Positions 40,224 to 48,573 of a stretch of DNA of 64,000 nucleotides are shown here, piece by piece. The first letter of the stretch is position 1, and each line of letters begins with the position of its first letter. The notes beneath the pieces are model-generated. The model saw only the letters and a list, made by a program, of their open reading frames with translations, was not told the origin of the DNA and did no database searches. The stretch lies in assembly GCA_023957755.1 (NCBI GenBank), contig JAMLGT010000006.1:1-64000 (forward strand), given 5' to 3'. The position numbers and the translations under genes are program-made. The stretch comes from Chitinophagaceae bacterium. GTDB lineage: Bacteria > Bacteroidota > Bacteroidia > Chitinophagales > Chitinophagaceae.

Positions 40224-40307
40224 GCCCGGGTGGCGGAATTGGTAGACGCAGCAGACTCAAAATCTGCCGTTCGCAAGGACGTGCTGGTTCGATTCCAGTC
40301 CCGGGCA
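40224..40307 (+). tRNA. tRNA-Leu (anticodon CAA)
   Basis: This is an 84-nt class II tRNA. The acceptor stem GCCCGGG (40224-40230) pairs with CCCGGGC (40300-40306), with discriminator A at 40307. The anticodon stem GCAGA/TCTGC encloses CTCAAAA, giving anticodon CAA for UUG codons. A long variable arm follows and the T-loop reads GGTTCGATTCC. CCA is not encoded. Its 3' end is the attachment site of the mobile element, and the gene remains intact after integration. Confidence 0.97.
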
Positions 40308-40308
40308 C
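40295..40308 (+). repeat. attL: 14-bp direct repeat copy in tRNA-Leu
   Basis: CCAGTCCCGGGCAC lies at the T-arm/acceptor end of tRNA-Leu and recurs exactly at 48560-48573. It is the left crossover core of the integrated element. Confidence 0.9.
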
Positions 40309-40311
40309 TTT

Positions 40312-40335
40312 AGCAGCTTAACGGCTGCTTTTTTT
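40312..40335 (+). terminator. Element-borne intrinsic terminator after tRNA-Leu
   Basis: A 6-bp stem AGCAGC (40312-40317) / GCTGCT (40324-40329) is followed by a T-run. It sits just inside the element and ends the tRNA transcript in place of the native terminator displaced to 48577. Confidence 0.85.
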
Positions 40336-40415
40336 ATGCGCTGAAACCTTTACCAGTACTGCATTTCAGGCGTTTTTGTTTCTTTTGATATTCCTTTATT
40401 GTTCTTTTGTTTCAT

Positions 40416-40449
40416 GTTACTTCTGTTACTCTTTTGTTACCCGAGTAAC
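40416..40449. repeat. Clustered GTTAC repeats near the left end (possible integrase arm sites)
   Basis: GTTAC occurs three times (40416, 40425 and 40436), followed by an inverted GTAAC at 40445; GTTAC-CCGA-GTAAC forms a small palindrome. The 16-mer GTTACTCTTTTGTTAC at 40425-40440 is repeated exactly at the right end (48483-48498). These may be arm-type integrase sites. Confidence 0.5.
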
Positions 40450-40502
40450 AAACAATATCCTTTTTTCATACCTTTGGTAAAGAAAAAGTAAAACAAAAGA
40501 AA

Positions 40503-41576
40503 ATGAGTGTAAAAATTAGACAACGAAAAAACAAGAATGGCAGTACTTCTTTAGTACTGGATATTTACCACAATGGCCAAAGAAAGTTTGAGTTTCTTAA
40601 AGAATTGACCTTGCAGAAAGGCACAAGCCCGGCCATAAAGCAGCGCAACAAAGAAAACCTTGCTTTGGCTGAAAGGATAGCCACAAAGAAAGCCCATGAA
40701 CTGGCAGCCGGTGATTTTGATATTGTTACTGATACCGGCAAAAAAACCGAAGTAACAAAATGGATGCAGGCCTATGTTGATAAATATGATAAAGGCGACA
40801 AACGAAATATGCAAGGAGCCTTAAACCATTTCAAAACTTTTTTGGTTGAAAATAAATTGACTGGTTTAACCTTTGGCCGGATCAGCGAACTGGTAGTTTC
40901 TGACTTTCAAGACTACCTTATCAGCTTTTCAAAAGGCGAAGGCGCAAGCAGCTACTTTGCCCGATTTAAAAAGATGATGAAGCGAGCATACAAAGAAAAT
41001 ATGATGATTAAGAATGTGGCCGCCGATGTGCCGACCATTGTAGGCAAAGCACGAAAAAAAGACACACTAACCCCGGATGAAATTAAACTTCTTTGGAACA
41101 CTCCAACAGAAAGCGATCAGGTTAAAAAGGCTTTTCTGTTTTGCTGCATGACTGGCTTAAGATGGTGCGATGTATCTATGCTGAAATGGCACAATATTCA
41201 AAAAGAAAGCATTGTGATTTCTCAATCAAAGACCGACGAAGATGTTACTATCAATATGAATGGTACAGCCCTTCAGTTAATTGGTAAACGTGGAAAGCCG
41301 GATCAGCTTGTATTTGAGCTACCCACTGCCAACGGAGCTAATAAAACCGTAAAAGCATGGGTAAGACGTGCGGGAATACAAAAAGAAATTACATGGCATA
41401 ATGCCCGGCATTCAGCCGGAACCAACTTAGCCTTCAATGGTGAAAACCTTTTGACAATAGCAGCCATTTTAGGACATACCAGCACAAAACATACCCAACG
41501 TTATGTAAAGGCTGCACAAGCCCTGAAACAGCGTGCTACGGATGGATTAAGCGTTGATCTAAACCCTGAAAATTAA
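40503..41576 (+). CDS. int: Tyrosine site-specific integrase
   Basis: This 357-residue phage-type integrase would catalyse integration and excision at the tRNA-Leu site. An N-terminal arm-binding domain (SVKIRQRKNKNGSTSLVLDIYHNGQRKFE region, residues 1-85) precedes a SAM-like core-binding domain (about 95-185). The catalytic domain has TGLRWCDV (first Arg), HNARHSAGTNLA (HxxR) and ILGHTSTKHTQRY (His and the Tyr nucleophile). It is the first gene of the element, next to attL, and is followed 5 bp later by a gene of unknown function. It resembles integrases of Bacteroidota conjugative and phage-like islands. Confidence 0.95.
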   Translation: MSVKIRQRKNKNGSTSLVLDIYHNGQRKFEFLKELTLQKGTSPAIKQRNKENLALAERIATKKAHELAAGDFDIVTDTGKKTEVTKWMQAYVDKYDKGDKRNMQGALNHFKTFLVENKLTGLTFGRISELVVSDFQDYLISFSKGEGASSYFARFKKMMKRAYKENMMIKNVAADVPTIVGKARKKDTLTPDEIKLLWNTPTESDQVKKAFLFCCMTGLRWCDVSMLKWHNIQKESIVISQSKTDEDVTINMNGTALQLIGKRGKPDQLVFELPTANGANKTVKAWVRRAGIQKEITWHNARHSAGTNLAFNGENLLTIAAILGHTSTKHTQRYVKAAQALKQRATDGLSVDLNPEN

Positions 41577-41581
41577 TAGCC

Positions 41582-42562
41582 ATGAATTACAAGCAAGTTA
41601 TTATTGATGCCCTATTTGATGCCAATGTAAAGCCATTTTTTGCACAGCACATTTTCAGAAAAATGCAGGAGGCGAAAAAGGTAAATTATGACACACTTGA
41701 ATTTTTTACCGGATGTACAAAAGCTATTGAAGCACTGGAAGGGGAGTTTATCGGCCAGTTAAACGATGTTCTGGTACGGATGGAAGATCAATTAGAGATA
41801 TGCAGGAAAAAGGGAAGTGAGAAAGCAGCAAAACGCATTCAGGAGCAGCGCGACTTCATAACGGAAGATAACTTTCAGATGCAGATCACCGGCTATGGCA
41901 GGTTATTAAAATATGATATTGATCTGGCCAGGCGCGGCGTGGCTGATGCCATAGAATTAACAAAGGGAGATATTGGCGGCCTTGCGGAAAAGGTAGGAAG
42001 GAAAAAGTTTGATGCAGCTTTTCAACAGGTTAGGGCTTTAATAGACCAAGAAAAGACAACTGGCATAGAACGAAGCGAGGCAGTAGCCCGGGAGCTGGAA
42101 GCATGGGCAAAAAAACAGGGATGGCCAGCACCGGACGGCAAAGCACTATCAGAGTTTTTTATATGGCAATTTTACACCGCTGAAACGGAAGAAGATGTTA
42201 CCATTTACAGCGATCCGCATTTACTTTATAAAGCATACAAAGAACATACTGAAAATAAGTTGTTAGATATAACCGCGGAATTTGCACCGGCAAACCCGGT
42301 TAAAAGCGAATTACAACCACTTGTAGATAACTTGATAGATAAAATAAAAAGTAGGTTATCTGCTAAAATTTGGCGTGCAGCATTTGCGGAGTTTCTGTAT
42401 AATGAAAATTACTTTAAAAAAAGAAAATACCGGATAAAAACGTGCAACGAATTTTGCCTTTTAACGTGGAAAGAGGATGTAACAATTCAGCTTGAAGGAG
42501 GGAAGAAAAAAGAACGCGAAAACCATATTGAGTATCTTAAAAAACTATTTCGAAAGATATAG
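41582..42562 (+). CDS. Unknown helical protein next to integrase
   Basis: I do not recognise this 326-residue protein. It is highly charged and mostly helical, with no signal peptide or membrane segment. The middle is Lys/Glu/Arg-rich (EICRKKGSEKAAKRIQEQRDFI) and the C-terminus is basic (NYFKKRKYRIKTC, GGKKKERENHIEYLKKLF), compatible with nucleic-acid or protein binding. It starts 5 bp after the integrase gene and ends at a strong terminator, so the two form one unit. A role in recombination control, regulation or superinfection immunity is possible, but nothing in the sequence decides this. Confidence 0.7.
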   Translation: MNYKQVIIDALFDANVKPFFAQHIFRKMQEAKKVNYDTLEFFTGCTKAIEALEGEFIGQLNDVLVRMEDQLEICRKKGSEKAAKRIQEQRDFITEDNFQMQITGYGRLLKYDIDLARRGVADAIELTKGDIGGLAEKVGRKKFDAAFQQVRALIDQEKTTGIERSEAVARELEAWAKKQGWPAPDGKALSEFFIWQFYTAETEEDVTIYSDPHLLYKAYKEHTENKLLDITAEFAPANPVKSELQPLVDNLIDKIKSRLSAKIWRAAFAEFLYNENYFKKRKYRIKTCNEFCLLTWKEDVTIQLEGGKKKERENHIEYLKKLFRKI

Positions 42563-42612
42563 GTGTACGGTACAGTACCCCAAATTTTATAGCAGCCAAA
42601 AGCCTTTACCAG

Positions 42613-42633
42613 CCCGCATTTGCGGGTTTTTTT
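42613..42633 (+). terminator. Intrinsic terminator after the int unit
   Basis: CCCGCA (42613-42618) and TGCGGG (42621-42626), followed by seven T residues. It separates the int/326-residue unit from the replication and capsid genes. Confidence 0.85.
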
Positions 42634-42703
42634 GTTTGGTGTACCCCTCAAAATAGTGCTTCTTTCTTTTGTTTTCAAAGTGCAGGTTTGTGAAAAAAAG
42701 CAC

Positions 42704-43009
42704 ATGGAAACTTTACAAAAAATTCATGAAGACCTTGAAATAATCAAGGCGATGCAATTTCTCAATAAGAGAGCCTTAACGCTTGATGAACTGGTACAAT
42801 ATACCGGCCTTGCAAAAAGCTATCTGTATAAAAAAACCATGCTGAATGAAATACCGGGAGCCAGCCGGCCAATGGGTAAGAAACTTTTTTTTGACCGTGA
42901 AAAAATAGATCAATGGCTTTTAGGGAGCCATTCGGATATAGAGCCGCCAATGAGTGATGAAGAAATTGAAAGCCGGGCAGCCAATTATATCACAACTGGT
43001 AAAATTTAA
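42704..43009 (+). CDS. Helix-turn-helix (excisionase-like) DNA-binding protein
   Basis: This protein is 101 residues from the ATG at 42704; an earlier in-frame start at 42620 has no family support. The HTH reads ALTLDELVQYTGLAKSYLYKKT, followed by the wing-like SRPMGKKLFFDREKIDQWLL, the pattern of helix_turn_helix_17/excisionase-type proteins common in Bacteroidota mobile elements. It probably acts as excisionase or as the regulator of the replication genes. The next gene follows with a 3-bp gap. Confidence 0.8.
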   Translation: METLQKIHEDLEIIKAMQFLNKRALTLDELVQYTGLAKSYLYKKTMLNEIPGASRPMGKKLFFDREKIDQWLLGSHSDIEPPMSDEEIESRAANYITTGKI

Positions 43010-43012
43010 GCC

Positions 43013-43297
43013 ATGACACCAAAAAAATTTAACAAGCTCCAAAAGGAAGTGCGCCTGGCATTCATTTATGCAACGATAGGCGATGCAAAGCTTCAAATCG
43101 CGAATGATCTTTTTGTGGACGGCATACAGATCTTTTTTCAGGCGAAGCACGGAGTTATAAGTGATGCGGTGGCATATCCATTACCAGCCGAAATGATAGC
43201 CTTGTTTCAAGGCGTTGGCAAGATGAGGTACATGCTTTTTGTACACGATGACGAAGACACAAAAAACAAAATTGTCTTTCGGGATCGGCACAATTAA
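43013..43297 (+). CDS. Small protein of unknown function
   Basis: This 94-residue protein has no family I recognise. The first part is basic and helical (KKFNKLQKEVRLAF); the rest is mixed alpha/beta. It starts 3 bp after the HTH gene and is probably cotranscribed with it and with the RepA-like gene 80 bp downstream, placing it in the replication/control module. Confidence 0.6.
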   Translation: MTPKKFNKLQKEVRLAFIYATIGDAKLQIANDLFVDGIQIFFQAKHGVISDAVAYPLPAEMIALFQGVGKMRYMLFVHDDEDTKNKIVFRDRHN

Positions 43298-43301
43298 AAA
43301 A

Positions 43302-43324
43302 GGCCGGGAGAACTAAACCCGGCC
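43302..43324. other. GC-rich hairpin upstream of the RepA-like gene
   Basis: A perfect 7-bp all-GC stem, GGCCGGG (43302-43308) / CCCGGCC (43318-43324), has a 9-nt loop. It has an A-run on each side, so it would work as a terminator only on the minus strand. On the plus strand it may be an attenuator or structured element 53 bp before the RepA-like start. Confidence 0.5.
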
Positions 43325-43377
43325 GAAAAAGAACTTGAAAAACGAGTTAAAAACTTTTAACGCTAAACGTTTAAACA

Positions 43378-44481
43378 ATGAGTACGAAGATACGGCAAAC
43401 GGACGAAATAAAGGCTGAATTTGAGCAAAGTTTTAGCAGCGATCTAAACGAATTTATACAAACCGAGGGCGGCGATGTTGTTGCGCCGAAAACCCTTTTA
43501 GAGAGGTACGAATATTTAAGAATTACCGATCAAACAGATGTACCCGATCCCGTTTCCGTTGTTACTATTGCCGGGCAAGTGATGTGTACTGGCGGCAACC
43601 TAACTACGATCAGCGGCGCAAGCAAGAGCGGCAAGAGTGCATTAACCGGCGTTACTATTGCCGGAGCCATTGCGCCCGGCGACTATGATGGGTTTCCAGA
43701 CCTTTATATCCAGCCTAACAGCGAAGGGAAGGCCATAATACATATTGATACCGAGCAAGCGCGAAGCAAGCACAAACGGAATTTATGCAGGATACTTGAC
43801 CGTGCAGGCGTGCGGGCGTGCCCGGACTATTTGCTATCGTATAACATTCGGCAATTGAGCTTAGACGAATATAAGGCCGTAACTGATGGCATTGTACAGG
43901 CAGCATCATTGCGTTATGGCGGCATTCATCTGATGGTAATTGATGGCATTGCCGACTATATCCGTGATGTGAACGATCCCGAGGACAGCAACGACATTGT
44001 AAACTATTTCGAGCGAATAGCCGTAACGTATGAGTGCCCGGTTATCGTTGTGGTACATACGAACCCTGGCAGCGACAAACAGCGCGGACATCTGGGCTCC
44101 CAGCTGCAACGGAAGAGCGAGAGTGTGCTTAATATCACCACAGAGGCCGATATAAGTACCATACAGCCGCAATTTTTGCGCAATGCAGGCAGTGGGCAGA
44201 TACCGTTAATTCAGTACCGTTATGATCCGTTGAAACACTATCACGTTTATTGCGGTATTAAGAGCGATACCCAGGCCGCCAAAGATGAACAACGGCTTTC
44301 CTTTATCCGTGATGTGGCAAGCAAGGTTTTTGGCGCGCAAAAGGCATACAGCTACAAAGAAGCAATTGAGGCAATAATGAGAGAGAGCAAAAAAGGGGAA
44401 ACAAATTCTAAAGGGTTTTTCAAAGAAATGCGAGCACATAAGATGATAACACAGGGAGACGATGATCTATGGAGAATGTAA
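43378..44481 (+). CDS. RepA-like RecA-fold ATPase (replicative helicase type)
   Basis: This 367-residue P-loop protein has Walker A ISGASKSGKSALT near residues 80-92 and Walker B LMVIDGIADYI near 190, followed by CPVIVVVHTNPGSDKQRGHLGSQL. This matches the RepA/RecA-like hexameric helicase family of plasmids and Bacteroidota islands. The C-terminus may hold a helical winged domain. With the primase-like protein and the repeat cluster that separates the two genes, it suggests the excised element can replicate itself. By eye this gene looks more GC-rich than most of the element, which may mark a separate origin. Confidence 0.85.
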   Translation: MSTKIRQTDEIKAEFEQSFSSDLNEFIQTEGGDVVAPKTLLERYEYLRITDQTDVPDPVSVVTIAGQVMCTGGNLTTISGASKSGKSALTGVTIAGAIAPGDYDGFPDLYIQPNSEGKAIIHIDTEQARSKHKRNLCRILDRAGVRACPDYLLSYNIRQLSLDEYKAVTDGIVQAASLRYGGIHLMVIDGIADYIRDVNDPEDSNDIVNYFERIAVTYECPVIVVVHTNPGSDKQRGHLGSQLQRKSESVLNITTEADISTIQPQFLRNAGSGQIPLIQYRYDPLKHYHVYCGIKSDTQAAKDEQRLSFIRDVASKVFGAQKAYSYKEAIEAIMRESKKGETNSKGFFKEMRAHKMITQGDDDLWRM

Positions 44482-44497
44482 TAATTATATGCCTATT

Positions 44498-44589
44498 GGT
44501 TTAGCGGTATAGTCGGTTTAATGGTTATACCCATTAAACCATTAAACCGGTTTACCCAAAAAACTATACCGGTTTAAACCCATTAAACC
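44498..44589. repeat. Iteron-like cluster, candidate replication origin
   Basis: The 10-mer CCATTAAACC occurs at 44531-44540, 44539-44548 and 44580-44589, and inverted (GGTTTAATGG) at 44515-44524. Further GGTTTA/TAAACC copies and an inverted GGTATAG/CTATACC pair (44506-44512 and 44564-44570) lie within the same 92 bp. The cluster sits between the RepA-like and primase-like genes, where an origin would be expected. Confidence 0.6.
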
Positions 44590-44604
44590 TAACAGTATTA
44601 ACAC

Positions 44605-45762
44605 ATGAGTATTTTAAACATATCAGTTTCAGGCTTCGCTAATTATCACACCACAGAGCCGAAGGATGTAAACCTTTTGGCGTGGCTTCGCTCCGAAAAG
44701 TATAGAGATCAGGTTATGGCGATACGAAAAAATGCGGATAAAGTTGAACGCGACAGACTTAAGGCAGTGTTACCGGCCATCACTCCCGGCGGCACATTCT
44801 CCGAAAGGAAGGCAACCGCCCTTATCACTCATTCAGGCTTTTTGCAATTCGATATTGACGGAGTGCGGGATATTACAGCAGCGAAACAGAAAGTGTGCTC
44901 CCTTCAAAACGTGGCCTATTGCGGCCTATCAGTTTCAGGCCGTGGCCTTTGGGGTTTAATACCGATAGCTGAACCGGCGCACCACAAACAATATTTTGAG
45001 TTTATCCAAAAGGCATTTGCAAGCATGGGCATTATCCTTGATCCGGCCTGCAAAGATGTGGCACGGTTGCGTGGATATTCTTATGATCCGGATGCCTATT
45101 TTAACCACAATGCAAAGCCATTAAACAGGTTTTATTCACGGCCTAAACCAGTTCCGCGTAAAACGCACTTTAAGGCCATTACAGGCAACTATGAAACTAA
45201 ACGAATAGAATATTGCCTAAGCGAATTAAATGCCCGGAAAATTGATCTAACACACCATTATAGCAACTGGTTTGCCTTAGGTTGTTCATTTTCATCTTTA
45301 GGCGAGGGAGGCAGGCAATATTTTCATATAGCTTCACAGAATTATCCCGGATACGATCCGCATGAAACCGATGAACAATTTACCAAATGCCTTAAAACCA
45401 GTTCAACAAAAAACCTGGCTACATTCTTTGCCATGTGTAGGGATGCAGGAGTGCATTTTAAAGATGCTGCACCAATAGTTGAACCTGCACCCGCGAAGCC
45501 GAAGCCATTGCTAAGCATATCCACGGATGATATTTGCCACATCCAATGGATCAACCAAACCGGAAAAAAATTTGATAACCTGCAAATAGTTTGGCTGAAA
45601 ACAGCCACAGAAAATTTTGAAGTACTTTATAACGAGCAAGGTTATCCGGTAACTGAATATTCAAAAACTATTGCACAGGTAGAAACTGAATTTAAAAAGA
45701 AATTCACACCCGGCCTCTTAGATGGAGAGGCTTGTTTTTTAATGAAAATTGATAAGCCATGA
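44605..45762 (+). CDS. Primase-like protein (VirE-N/BT4734-like plus PriCT-like)
   Basis: This 385-residue protein is an archaeo-eukaryotic-primase-like enzyme of mobile elements. The N-terminal VirE-N/BT4734-type domain shows FLQFDIDGVRDITAAK (acidic catalytic pair) and VSVSGRGLWGLIPI. A PriCT-2-like part follows (HHYSNWFALGCSFSSLGEGGRQYFHIAS, YDPHETDEQF). It lies just after the repeat cluster and would prime replication of the excised element together with the RepA-like ATPase. The C-terminus is a separate ~80-residue region of unclear role. It overlaps the next small gene by 4 bp. Confidence 0.85.
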   Translation: MSILNISVSGFANYHTTEPKDVNLLAWLRSEKYRDQVMAIRKNADKVERDRLKAVLPAITPGGTFSERKATALITHSGFLQFDIDGVRDITAAKQKVCSLQNVAYCGLSVSGRGLWGLIPIAEPAHHKQYFEFIQKAFASMGIILDPACKDVARLRGYSYDPDAYFNHNAKPLNRFYSRPKPVPRKTHFKAITGNYETKRIEYCLSELNARKIDLTHHYSNWFALGCSFSSLGEGGRQYFHIASQNYPGYDPHETDEQFTKCLKTSSTKNLATFFAMCRDAGVHFKDAAPIVEPAPAKPKPLLSISTDDICHIQWINQTGKKFDNLQIVWLKTATENFEVLYNEQGYPVTEYSKTIAQVETEFKKKFTPGLLDGEACFLMKIDKP

Positions 45763-45947
45763 ATGATAAAAAAGTAATTGCAGAATTAAGAAGGAGCTAC
45801 AATAAACTGGAAAGGCAATATATCAGTTTGAGAAAAGAAAATGATCTGCTTTTTGAGCGATTGAAAGCAAAGAAAGTGAGAGAGAAAGAAGCAAAAAGCA
45901 CGGCCAAAAAAACCGGTATTGTGCCTGTTACCAGCACATTATATTGA
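45759..45947 (+). CDS. 62-residue coiled-coil protein
   Basis: This is a small, highly charged protein with a predicted coiled coil (LRRSYNKLERQYISLRKENDLLFERL) and a basic tail. Its start overlaps the primase-like gene by 4 bp, which supports real translation. Function is unknown; it could be a replication accessory or a scaffold-like peptide. Confidence 0.6.
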   Translation: MNDKKVIAELRRSYNKLERQYISLRKENDLLFERLKAKKVREKEAKSTAKKTGIVPVTSTLY

Positions 45948-46051
45948 CCTGTAACCCTTTGTAGTATGGGTATCTATAAAATGAAGTATCAAAGAAGTAA
46001 CAGAAACAGTAAAAAGTTTGTATTTTTACACTGGATCAAAGGCATAAAATT

Positions 46052-46357
46052 ATGGCAAACCCACTATGGAAAGTAGGCATGAAGTCAGCAAACCCGGCAG
46101 GTCGGCCAAGGGATAGCGTTCGCACTCCTAAAGGTATGTTAGAAAGGTTTTTAATGAAAGCCCTAAAGCCTTCGGAGCTAAAGAATCTTTACGAACGTTT
46201 GCCCGATAAGGAAAAGGCATCATTCATCGTTCAAACGTTGCCCTATATTATGCCACGGCAAAGCAGTGTTGACGGCATGAGTGCCCAAGATGTGGATAAG
46301 ATATATTCTGAAATTATGGCAACCTTAAACAACCACGGCAATGCAAAAACCGGATAA
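46052..46357 (+). CDS. DUF5681-like protein, possible terminase-small-subunit analogue
   Basis: This 101-residue basic protein begins with a GMKSANPAGRPRDS segment, the NPxGRP motif of DUF5681-type proteins that often lie directly before terminase genes in Bacteroidota phages. The rest (LKNLYERLPDKEKASFIVQTLPYIMPRQ) is helical and fits the same group. In phage satellites a private small terminase directs packaging of the element DNA by the helper's large subunit; that role is inferred here. The 3' end overlaps the next gene by 17 bp. Confidence 0.6.
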   Translation: MANPLWKVGMKSANPAGRPRDSVRTPKGMLERFLMKALKPSELKNLYERLPDKEKASFIVQTLPYIMPRQSSVDGMSAQDVDKIYSEIMATLNNHGNAKTG

Positions 46358-46862
46358 ACAAGGCAAACTTTCACTGATAAGGCAACTGCTATCTGGCAAC
46401 ATTGATCTGGAAGCATTAAAGCCACCTCAAACCTTTCTCATTGATATTACCGAAGATGGCCTATATCATTTGAACAATGGAAGGAGCCGTGCAAAGTGTG
46501 CCATGAATAGAGATCAGTACGAAGCATGGAAGGCCGCCAATGTTCGGGATCAGGATTTGTTACTGGAAGTGGAATTGTCAGCGTATGATCCGAACGAGCC
46601 GGAACCATTCCCGGAACCATTAACGGAACCGATCAAACCAAAAGAACCAAAGAAGCCTTTTAAAGCCATTAGGGAGCTATTTAAAGGCACTTCTAAGAAG
46701 ATGGAAGTAAAGCCACAGCAAAAGCAGATAACGGAGCTACAACAGCCTAAGAGAGCCGGGAAGCTATCAGAGTACGGCCTTTCATGGAGTTGTGATCCTA
46801 TGAATATCGAAAGAGAATTATATCGCGAGCCGATGGGTTACCAAAGGAGCGTTATAGTATAA
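46341..46862 (+). CDS. Unknown protein with proline-rich linker, upstream of capsid gene
   Basis: I do not recognise this 173-residue protein. Residues 1-85 look folded (LLSGNIDLEALKPP, CAMNRDQYEAW); a Pro/Glu/Lys-rich segment follows (about 90-120) and a basic C-terminus. It overlaps the DUF5681-like gene by 17 bp and precedes the capsid gene by about 120 bp, so it belongs to the capsid module. A scaffold, decoration or packaging accessory role is possible. Confidence 0.6.
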   Translation: MQKPDKQGKLSLIRQLLSGNIDLEALKPPQTFLIDITEDGLYHLNNGRSRAKCAMNRDQYEAWKAANVRDQDLLLEVELSAYDPNEPEPFPEPLTEPIKPKEPKKPFKAIRELFKGTSKKMEVKPQQKQITELQQPKRAGKLSEYGLSWSCDPMNIERELYREPMGYQRSVIV

Positions 46863-46871
46863 AAGGATAGC

Positions 46872-46927
46872 AAGCCGGAACCAACCAACCACTTGCAACG
46901 CAGAAAGCCGGAATTAACCAACCACTT
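46872..46927. repeat. Two 23-bp direct repeats before the capsid gene
   Basis: AAGCCGGAAnnAACCAACCACTT occurs at 46872-46894 and 46905-46927 with only the two n positions differing (CC versus TT), 33 bp apart. They lie in the leader of the capsid gene and could be binding sites for a regulator or packaging protein. Confidence 0.6.
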
Positions 46928-46980
46928 CACAGCGTTTCCACAGCAAACATTTATTATTCAAAATTTTAAATTCATTTACG

Positions 46981-48129
46981 ATGAATACAGAAACAGAATT
47001 GCGTGAAGCGTTGGATAATTTAAAGAACCAACTGGACGCAAAATTAGACAGCAAGGTTGCTAAAGAAACGGAGCCTTTGCGCAAAGATTTAGATGCAACT
47101 ATCAAAGCATTTGATACATTGCAGGTGCGTATTAAAAATGCACCTACACCAATACAGGCGAAGGAGCAATCTTTTGATGGCCAATTAAGGGAGGAGATTT
47201 TCAACAACACTGACAATTTCAGGAAGCTACAAGGCAGGGAAATTAAGTCTTTCAAATTTGATTTAAAGGCCGTTGGTGATATGTCATTAAGTAATGTTAC
47301 CGGCGGCAGCCGTGCCATTAGTCCGGGATTGGTTGTTGTGCCTTCGGATAGGCGTGCGCGTTATGTTCGCGACTTCCTACGGATTGGATCAATGGAAGGA
47401 TCATATCTGCCAATTTTGCAAGACAATGGAGGCGAAGGCGCACCGGCTCCCACAGCAGAGAAAGCATTAAAGCCGCAACTGGATTATGAATTGAAAGAAG
47501 CAAGCGCGAAAGCCGAAGTTATAGCCGGGTGGGTACGCTTCTCAGAGCAGTTCCTGGACGACGTACCTAATGCTCAAAACTGGTTAGTTCAGAAGCTAAC
47601 AGAGAGTTACATGCAGGCCGAAGATGCGCAGTTGCTTACTGGCAATGGCACAAGCCCGAATTTATCAGGATTGAACACGAGCGGCAATTTCACCACTGCC
47701 ACACCAACAGCGATAACAGACAGCCCTATTTCAAAACTGATACAGGGTATTCTACAACTTCGCACATTGGGCAAAAATCCAACAGGAGTTATCATTAACC
47801 CGGCGGACTATGCAGGTTTGTTGCTTAATGCGTCGAGTGGCTCAGGAGTGTTTGACCTGCCATCTTACGTGAGTGTTTCACCGTTTGGGCAGATTTCAAT
47901 TTTGGGAGTACCGGTATTAGACACACCGGCGCAAACAGCGGAGGTTTACACGATCATTGACAATGCAGGTAGCCTTTTAGCAGTTCGGCAAAATGTAACG
48001 GTAGAATTCTTTGAGCAGGACACTGACAACGTTCAAAAGAATATGATTACCGCCCGCGTGGAAAGCAGAATAACACTTGCGATTTATGGCGCAGCGTTCA
48101 ACGTGAAAGGATCATTTGCTACTACATAG
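46981..48129 (+). CDS. Phage major capsid protein (HK97 fold)
   Basis: This 382-residue protein matches HK97-type major capsid proteins. The N-terminal ~45 residues form a coiled-coil delta-domain-like scaffold (REALDNLKNQLDAKLDSKV). The core then shows LPILQDNGGEGAPAP, the diagnostic strand KAEVIAGWVRFSEQFLDD, an A-domain helix ending AQLLTGNGTSPNLSGL, and the terminal region VFDLPSYVSVSP and ARVESRITLAIYGAAFNV. No capsid protease, portal, terminase large subunit or tail gene accompanies it. The delta-like domain argues against an encapsulin. The shell may be built by the element itself or used to redirect a helper phage's assembly. Confidence 0.92.
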   Translation: MNTETELREALDNLKNQLDAKLDSKVAKETEPLRKDLDATIKAFDTLQVRIKNAPTPIQAKEQSFDGQLREEIFNNTDNFRKLQGREIKSFKFDLKAVGDMSLSNVTGGSRAISPGLVVVPSDRRARYVRDFLRIGSMEGSYLPILQDNGGEGAPAPTAEKALKPQLDYELKEASAKAEVIAGWVRFSEQFLDDVPNAQNWLVQKLTESYMQAEDAQLLTGNGTSPNLSGLNTSGNFTTATPTAITDSPISKLIQGILQLRTLGKNPTGVIINPADYAGLLLNASSGSGVFDLPSYVSVSPFGQISILGVPVLDTPAQTAEVYTIIDNAGSLLAVRQNVTVEFFEQDTDNVQKNMITARVESRITLAIYGAAFNVKGSFATT

Positions 48130-48159
48130 TTTTTTCTCATAGTTGGTTTTCGGAGTTCT

Positions 48160-48192
48160 AAACCCTGGCTTTTATGTTGGCCGGGGTTTTTT
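48160..48192 (+). terminator. Intrinsic terminator after the capsid gene
   Basis: AAACCCTGGC (48160-48169) pairs with GCCGGGGTTT (48180-48189) with one G-T wobble, then a T-run. The ATG of the downstream remnant (48174) lies in its loop. Confidence 0.85.
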
Positions 48193-48458
48193 GTTTGAGC
48201 AACCTTACTGATGGATGGAAGTTTGAGCTGGCGCAAGTGAAAAGGGAGTTGTTGCAGGAAATAGGAAGGGAGAGAAAGGTGGAAGCGGCATTAGTCAGAG
48301 AGGCAAAGAAGCGAGGAGAAGAACCAGAGTTGTCAATAGTTGACAACTCTGGTACAGAGCAAATCCACAGCACCCGCGACACCATTGCCAAAGACTTAGG
48401 CTGGAGCACCGGCAAAACTGCTATGGCGGAGGTAGTTTTTTTTGTTATGCAGCGTTAA
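48174..48458 (+). pseudogene. Remnant of a ParB-like HTH protein
   Basis: This 94-residue open frame resembles the central HTH part of ParB-like proteins of Bacteroidota mobile elements (DGWKFELAQVKRELLQEIGRE, then STRDTIAKDLGWSTGKTAMAEVVF). It lacks the N-terminal ParB fold and the C-terminal part. Its only ATG lies in the loop of the capsid-gene terminator, so efficient expression is unlikely. It probably marks a larger gene lost by recombination near the right end of the element. It could instead be a short functional protein. Confidence 0.5.
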
Positions 48459-48482
48459 CTTCTTTTCAATTATTCAATTTTC

Positions 48483-48498
48483 GTTACTCTTTTGTTAC
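48483..48498 (+). repeat. Right-end copy of the 16-bp GTTAC repeat
   Basis: GTTACTCTTTTGTTAC is an exact copy of 40425-40440, in the same orientation, 62 bp before attR. Its presence near both ends fits integrase arm sites. Confidence 0.5.
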
Positions 48499-48559
48499 TT
48501 GTAATTCTTGAAACGGCTGAAACTATTACCAATATTGACTTATATCAAAATAGTAAATG

Positions 48560-48573
48560 CCAGTCCCGGGCAC
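48560..48573 (+). repeat. attR: 14-bp direct repeat of the tRNA-Leu 3' end
   Basis: CCAGTCCCGGGCAC repeats 40295-40308 exactly. It is the right crossover core and is followed within 4 bp by a hairpin that fits the original tRNA terminator. Confidence 0.9.

Follow-up and report, generated by a model that had tools for sequence, protein, structure and literature searches.

In a 64,000-nucleotide stretch of the genome of a Chitinophagaceae bacterium (contig JAMLGT010000006.1, positions 1 to 64,000; the whole stretch is called the window here), we observed an integrated element of 8,265 bp, which is bounded by perfect 14-bp attachment (att) repeats at a tRNA-Leu(CAA) gene and encodes an HK97-type capsid protein. 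Its plan is shared by six att-bounded elements of ∼8.2–9.2 kb in five Chitinophagaceae genomes, all residing at tRNA or tmRNA genes. The first-pass annotation of this DNA had proposed a reduced, capsid-encoding, tRNA-integrated satellite, and a satellite-like element of this kind, kept in relatives, is supported by the six elements. We consider it fairly probable that these are phage satellites of Bacteroidota, which would redirect packaging by a protein like the small terminase (TerS) and resize the heads of a helper phage by a protein like Ccm of the staphylococcal island SaPIbov5. What the sequence shows is the anatomy and recurrence of the element, several capsid lineages and mostly low ratios of non-synonymous to synonymous substitution rates (dN/dS), from which a helper, packaging, a head size and a TerS role are inferred. 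In the following, G numbers denote genomes (G000 is that of the window), L numbers denote loci, and C2, C19, C26 and C38 are contigs of G004.

The att repeat, CCAGTCCCGGGCAC, lies on the + strand at 40295..40308 (attL) and 48560..48573 (attR), and two copies occurred in no shuffle of the window. The attL is the 3′ end (last 14 bases) of the integration target, tRNA-Leu (CAA), which is intact at the left end of the element (40224..40308, + strand; ARAGORN). The open reading frames (ORFs) follow on the + strand in the order integrase, ORF326, AlpA-like helix-turn-helix (HTH) protein, an ORF of 94 amino acids (aa), AAA_25 RepA-like ATPase, primase, ORF62, GRP101, ORF173, HK97-type capsid and ORF94R. 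Among them, we assigned a tyrosine integrase of 357 aa (40503..41576; PF00589, 1.8e-21; PF13102, PF17293, phrog_1), a RepA-like AAA_25 ATPase of 367 aa (43378..44481; PF13481, 2.7e-9), a primase-like protein of 385 aa with BT4734-N and PriCT_2 (44605..45762; PF08800, PF08707), and the 382-aa major capsid homologue with a short N-terminal delta region (46981..48129; PF05065, TIGR01554, phrog_10). GRP101, a DUF5681-like small protein and TerS-like candidate (46052..46357), is kept in six element rows; its end is overlapped by ORF173 (46341..46862), which has homologues in L015, L044 and L045. The repeat at both ends, and the integrase, ATPase, primase-like and capsid genes in one orientation, are as the first-pass annotation had described them. 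It had also reported that large terminase (TerL), portal, protease, tail and relaxase genes are absent, and indeed none was found by the PHROGs and Pfam scan, which covered ten ORFs of the element (the 62-aa ORF at 45759-45947 and smaller frames lay outside it). No PADLOC family was found among 10 unassigned proteins.

In G004, a genome of the same genus, the tRNA-Leu gene carries the att sequence with no element after it. The flanks of this site are common to both genomes, with ORFs of 335 and 241 aa on the left and a chitinase-like ORF (judged by eye) on the right; the left flank in the window includes an additional ORF of 396 aa, and the right flank in G004 includes ∼700 bases of different DNA.

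The first-pass annotation had suggested a search for the same gene order in other genomes. Among the 294 genomes of the family sample, 11 matched the capsid. Their gene maps revealed satellite-type elements in G000, G004, G219, G254 and G323, phage-type loci in G110, G169, G211, G227 (twice) and G297, and, in G198, a short capsid fragment without neighbours of either type. Thus, the plan recurs in five genomes of one family. In G004, four contig ends fall inside elements and represent two elements split by assembly: the left end of C2 pairs with the tRNA-Lys end of C26 through a private 23-bp repeat, and the left end of C19 with the tmRNA end of C38 through a private 17-bp repeat, while the cross pairs (C2/C38 and C19/C26) have no repeat in common. 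Adding the contig parts gives elements of about 8.4 and 8.2 kb. The other three elements are L044 (9,201 bp; tRNA-Ser, 25-bp att), L045 (8,824 bp; tRNA-Lys, 48-bp att) and L046 (8,478 bp; tRNA-Thr, 49-bp att). Portal, protease and TerL matches were found in none of these other elements either.

The window and C2 are 92–95% identical in the DNA of the late module; at the protein level, they share 89% of GRP101, 94% of ORF173 and 94% of a short capsid stretch. Their replication genes differ, with DUF3987 and a CHC2-zinc primase in C2 versus AAA_25 and BT4734-N in the window. In C19, the exchange point is later, so that its GRP is 40% and the start of its ORF173 86% identical to those of the window. 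The late module (GRP101, ORF173 and capsid) recurs in relatives, while the integrase and replication modules are swapped. The dN/dS values across the element genes are mostly low: 0.08 for the C-terminal part of the capsid between the window and C38 (119 codons), 0.17 for the capsid between the window and C26 (41 codons), 0.40 for ORF173 and 0.22 for the primase.

A further relative is L128 (IMGVR_UViG_3300030412_000590), a contig of 6,111 bp having a 77-base terminal repeat, and therefore read as a complete circle. Encoded on it are a protein of 865 aa that matches ResIII weakly, an HTH protein, a capsid, a protein with a weak GRP match (18.5 bits) and a 73-aa ORF; its non-overlapping ORF set has nothing further of at least 55 aa, and no portal, protease or TerL match. 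Without an integrase, L128 is possibly an episomal form of the idea of a lone-capsid element.

In the class sample, PF05065 was found at 17 places in 16 of 395 genomes. Besides the place in the window, 14 of the 16 places have a protease, portal or TerL match nearby (protease only in six); of the remaining two, L238 is at a contig edge and L252 is a match under the cut-off. Neither GRP nor ORF173 was found near any of these 16 places. Six genomes of one genus (f66/g263) have a pair of protease and 407–409-aa capsid genes (L240, L241, L243, L244, L245 and L246, the last being a 4.6-kb contig), and the fetched stretches had no portal or terminase profile match. This pair may be a further head module that has been reduced or domesticated.

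Capsid lineages and the delta region

The capsid protein scored 8.1e-24 with PF05065, 1.2e-31 with phrog_10 and 60.3 bits with TIGR01554 (cut-off 27.5). It is 29.6% identical to HK97 gp5 in an alignment over 96%, and a profile of this protein with 18 relatives matched 3qpr, an HK97 chain with the scaffold domain. The satellite copy was the sole PF05065 match in each of G000, G219, G254 and G323, and G004, in which the gene is fragmented, had none. Phage records and plasmids yielded only capsids under 60% identity to the satellite capsid.

We compared the five full-length satellite capsids with those of phages on a tree of 51 rows, reduced from 93 by removal of near-duplicates (>85% identity) and rooted only at the midpoint. 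The satellite capsids require four label changes on this tree, its starred branches force four, and they were united in 0% of 200 bootstrap trees. As 69 of 500 label shuffles needed as few changes, the satellite capsids are hardly more clustered than expected by chance. The capsids of the window and L044 pair with each other beside the phages L006, L054 and L055; that of L045 groups with L049 and L109, that of L046 with L141 and L053, and that of L128 with L112. Hence, on sequence grouping, the satellite capsids occupy at least four separate places among the phage capsids, which suggests, as the simplest reading, a repeated capture of capsid genes from phages. The single origin that had been expected was not supported by the tree. 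With the nearest phage capsids compared, the identities were 37.5, 36.9, 52.5, 35.8 and 49.3%. Two phages with capsids near to that of L045 carry replication proteins resembling those of the elements: that of L103 is like the protein of L045 (276.6 bits), and that of L111, whose capsid is among the closest to L045's, is like the protein of L046 (334.9 bits). These similarities point to a gene exchange between phages and satellites.

Next, we measured the delta region as the residues before the LKxVGxMT-like motif, so that the lengths are maxima. It has at most 94 aa in the window, 87 in L044, 92 in L045, 74 in L046 and 53 in L128, compared with a median of 103 aa for 86 phage capsids (Mann–Whitney, nominal p 0.0007). 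Excluded from this phage set were L069 and L116, which are truncated at contig edges, and one capsid of 87 for which the delta length was not usable; L124, with an ORF beginning 35 bases into its contig, was retained. When each satellite capsid was compared with its five nearest phages, the satellite delta was shorter in 24 of the 25 comparisons (5/5, 5/5, 4/5, 5/5 and 5/5), and the lone exception was L124, in the L045 set, which starts at a contig edge. The true measure for a Ccm is its delta relative to that of its helper; these comparisons are with the nearest phages, which are not known helpers.

The IMG/VR scan with the satellite capsid profile was taken to its best 80 loci. Among the matches listed, 12 of the 87 classified capsid loci lacked any match to a portal, protease, TerL or minor-head protein. 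The capsid of 11 such loci is found no more than about 450 bases into the contig; the twelfth is L128, which has the only GRP match, among the matches listed, in these 12 loci.

GRP101, ORF173 and capsid-less relatives

DUF5681 matched four of the six element GRP rows, with a best value of 5.1e-6 and 0.12 for the window copy; in the PDB, no significant match to the GRP was found by sequence. As the query for a GRP scan of IMG/VR, we used the GRP of the capsid-less element L176 (GRP profile match 2.9e-9), and 22 loci were returned. In 18 of them, a TerL-profile match lies downstream of the GRP relative, and these TerL proteins form eight clusters at 80% identity. The distance from the GRP start to the TerL start is 274–317 bases in 13 loci and 503–759 in five, some with an intervening ORF; in the other four loci, either the contig breaks off (two loci) or the ORF that lies downstream carries no label (two loci). 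A profile built from the element GRPs alone matched the phage ORF in 14 of the 22 loci. The relatives of GRP101 may therefore hold the position of a small terminase, and GRP101 may be TerS-like. The first-pass annotation had stated that the element has no visible virion or packaging genes besides the capsid. This stands insofar as the scanned ORFs include neither a large terminase nor a portal, and is maybe too strong, since the 101-aa ORF at 46052-46357 is possibly a packaging gene.

Of 288 genomes of the family, 10 have a GRP gene, and five of these bear the capsid. The loci L263, L264 and L265 have integrase, RepA (weak in two) and GRP matches and no capsid match; L267 has an integrase and GRP, and in L266 the GRP was not recovered by the ORF caller. 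In the class sample, GRP was found in 24 of 395 genomes; 20 of its 27 places outside the window were fetched, and these had no capsid-profile match and, in five cases, an integrase match. Since GRP is commoner than the capsid and occurs also outside integrase stretches, the GRP family appears to be wider than the satellites, and the capsid seems to be an optional extra of a more general backbone. L176, L181, L184, L263–L265 and L267 are integrase stretches with GRP, some also with ORF173-like small proteins, and without a capsid match; such stretches possibly represent a large unrecognised satellite backbone of Bacteroidota.

The homologues of ORF173 have an N-terminal motif in common (by eye), and none was found outside these elements and their capsid-less relatives, in which they are short proteins; ORF173 had no significant match in phage records and no relative in the IMG/VR scan. 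In L046, an ORF173-like gene (2227-2880; homology by eye) runs opposite to the GRP and capsid genes beside it.

Putative origin, palindrome and remaining genes

Between repA and the primase gene, the stretch 44515..44589 carries four CCATTAAACC repeats, one of them inverted, where 0.10 matches were expected. As DNA, it folds better than 200 of 200 shuffles (z −5.25), and it is likely to be the replication origin. A test for nine-mers with at least three occurrences was positive for the gap of the window and for stretches of L045, L046 and L015, and negative for the corresponding repA–primase gaps of L044 and C19 (L028). Shorter repeats were seen by eye at this gap in L044 (6262-6378) and L028 (1865-2005). 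Differing gap repeats are the pattern expected for element-specific, putative origins.

Between the capsid and attR lies a palindrome with perfect 14-bp arms (48323..48353). Palindromes are also present at about 533-566 of L005 and about 326-355 of L003. By eye, the three elements share the core TTGTCAA-3 nt-TTGACAA, while the sequence of the outer arms varies with complementarity retained. This is possibly compensatory change, and a terminator, a packaging site or a regulatory site is possible.

The remaining genes are all on the + strand. ORF326 (41582..42562) has no family in Pfam or PHROGs, and an ORF of 236–267 aa holds its position after the integrase in L028, L044 and L045. The AlpA/excisionase-like HTH protein (101 aa; 42704..43009) matches phrog_25262 (5.7e-14), with the HTH_17 and AlpA models scoring under their cut-offs. 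ORF62 (45759..45947) is kept in the C19 element of G004 with 65% aa identity and a dN/dS of 0.24. The DNA of ORF94R (48174..48458) is kept beside the capsid in three elements, with a frame shift near the end in C38.

Helper exploitation and competing readings

The mechanism that we favour would begin with the infection or induction of a helper having an HK97-type head (protease, capsid with a delta domain, portal and large terminase), upon which the element would excise and replicate. GRP101, as a small-terminase-like factor, would steer the large terminase of the helper onto the element DNA. The capsid protein of the element, having a shortened delta, would join the procapsid assembly of the helper to give a smaller head, suited to about 8–9 kb of DNA or a short concatemer, and the helper would supply protease, portal, large terminase and tails. 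As with the Ccm of SaPIbov5, this co-assembly would also interfere with the helper. Over time, the capsid gene would have been replaced by captures from different phages, probably for compatibility with changing helpers.

Several observations weigh against this mechanism. The link between GRP and phages was made with the GRP of L176, which has no capsid, and the common sequence is mostly N-terminal; GRP101 of the window had no significant match in phage records, and its PHROG matches are weak. In Bacteroides phage BF1-TP2, the DUF5681 protein (E 0.05) has an integrase and regulators annotated nearby, and the 8-kb stretch covered names no terminase. GRP was found in none of the 31 capsid-phage loci with TerL, GRP genes occur also in stretches without an integrase match, and in L128 the GRP lies after the capsid, with no ORF173 match. 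The p-value for the delta lengths is only nominal because the phages are related and their lengths not independent, and 10 of the 86 phage capsids have a delta of 94 aa or fewer. Among the substitution ratios, the capsid gave 0.83 between C38 and C26 (41 codons, few changes), GRP101 gave 0.85 between the window and C2 (101 codons, its first residues apparently exchanged), and the RepA value of 0.10 comes with a saturated dS. Finally, a TerL profile of seven rows had no match in G000, G004, G219 and G323. As four of the five host genomes are without such a match, the helpers may be phages from outside. Only G254 gave TerL matches, one on a 3.4-kb contig with a portal (L215) and a weaker one on a second contig (L216, covering 20,000 of its 29,907 bases); the capsid profile had no match on L215 or L216.

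Capsid-forming phage-inducible chromosomal islands (cf-PICIs) carry a fuller head and packaging set, pac-type Staphylococcus aureus pathogenicity islands (SaPIs) and PICIs carry int, an AlpA-like regulator and replication genes, and Streptomyces satellites with encapsidation genes are reportedly described in one study. Of the head module of cf-PICIs, the element has the capsid and the TerS-like candidate only. It is not a cf-PICI, for want of the fuller module, nor, with its capsid gene, a phage-inducible chromosomal minimalist island (PICMI). In the passages compared here, cf-PICIs likewise have phage-derived capsid genes, in three clades of the phage capsid tree (PMC11389934), but produce capsids of their own and are 14 kb long on average (PMC10803314). 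Pac-type SaPIs and PICIs redirect capsid size and use a small terminase with the TerL of the helper, a part for which the TerS-like protein here is a candidate; unlike the element, pac-type SaPIs use CpmA/CpmB, unrelated to the capsid protein (PMC5052747), and PICIs are reported from Firmicutes and Gammaproteobacteria (PMC10803314). PICMIs resemble the element in their small size (about 6.1 kb for PICMI115) and in having genes for excision and replication, but the cited passages report no capsid-remodelling gene and no terS in them (PMC10803314).

The closest plan is that of SaPIbov5 and the cos-type SaPIs, which are also integrated and also have a single HK97-fold capsid homologue: their Ccm has a shortened delta domain and shrinks the helper heads, and, as in our element, the cited passages identify no protease (PMC8569155, PMC5052747). 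A correlation of delta-domain length with head size has been suggested (cited in PMC5052747). They differ in belonging to another phylum, and here we have a TerS-like gene and at least four capsid lineages; moreover, Ccm is 24% identical to the capsid of its own helper, whereas the identities here, 36–52%, are to the nearest phages, not to known helpers. The Charybdis elements (PMC12324425), also considered, are a different kind of element by the passages cited. The named satellite families of one survey belong to other groups (PMC10803314), proposed satellites of soil bacteria are mentioned in PMC11389934, and, in mainly open-access literature, we found no described satellite family of this kind in Chitinophagaceae or Bacteroidota, which is weak evidence of absence.

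The single capsid homologue matches the plan of Ccm, and the delta, shorter than in most of the nearest phages, would fit it too; the resizing of helper heads is therefore preferred over a self-built shell. The latter was the idea of the first-pass annotation, in which the element supplies its own shell protein; the element does encode an HK97-type capsid, but co-assembly in the manner of Ccm is judged likelier, because the characterised lone-capsid protein of a satellite cannot build a shell alone (PMC8569155). A minimal capsid-forming satellite, whose capsid alone builds a small shell (e.g. T=3 or T=4) and which borrows protease, portal, large terminase and tails, is in our judgement unlikely. 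The delta region, the gp5 alignment and the 3qpr match would suit it, as would the clustering of element sizes at about 8.2–9.2 kb; the fuller packaging set and larger average size of the known capsid-forming satellites, and the inability of Ccm, the closest characterised protein by plan, to form shells alone, argue against it. Less probable still is a purely anti-phage role, in which the element would be a defence island and not a packaged satellite, with a capsid homologue that is dominant-negative for phage head assembly. Expression of Ccm cuts the helper titre 1000- to 10000-fold (PMC5052747), and the lack of a resident helper by the TerL profile in four of five genomes fits such a role, but the integrase, the replication genes and the TerS-like neighbour are retained, there are several integration sites and the circular form L128, and no PADLOC family was found in the 10 proteins; interference and mobilisation are, besides, compatible with each other.

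An eroded prophage that chanced to retain its capsid gene, to which the single recognised structural gene would correspond, is very improbable and was rejected: six att-bounded elements of relatives conserve the plan at different att sites with differing capsid lineages, the dN/dS is low, and L128 is a lone-capsid circle. An encapsulin or another cellular compartment protein can be dismissed almost entirely, as the family-3 encapsulin score is weak (25.2 bits versus a cut-off of 180), while HK97 capsid models exceed theirs and the nearest relatives are phage capsids, most of them beside proteases. Hence, none of the outcomes named beforehand as refuting the satellite (a TerL or portal gene among the scanned ORFs, an encapsulin, an isolated relic) came true.

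Returning to the resizing of helper heads, a broader version may be considered, which we hold only tentatively: a class-wide backbone of integrase, HTH, replication, GRP and ORF173-like genes would repeatedly capture the capsid gene of the exploited phage, shorten its scaffold and so re-invent Ccm, and in some lineages the lone protein may build a small shell. In the passages of the literature consulted on it, Ccm of the staphylococcal islands is the only lone satellite capsid homologue described. If true, a family in another phylum, having at least four capsid lineages with a short scaffold in parallel, would make of this isolated case a general route of evolution, and its several lineages would offer natural replicates for testing the delta length against the head size.

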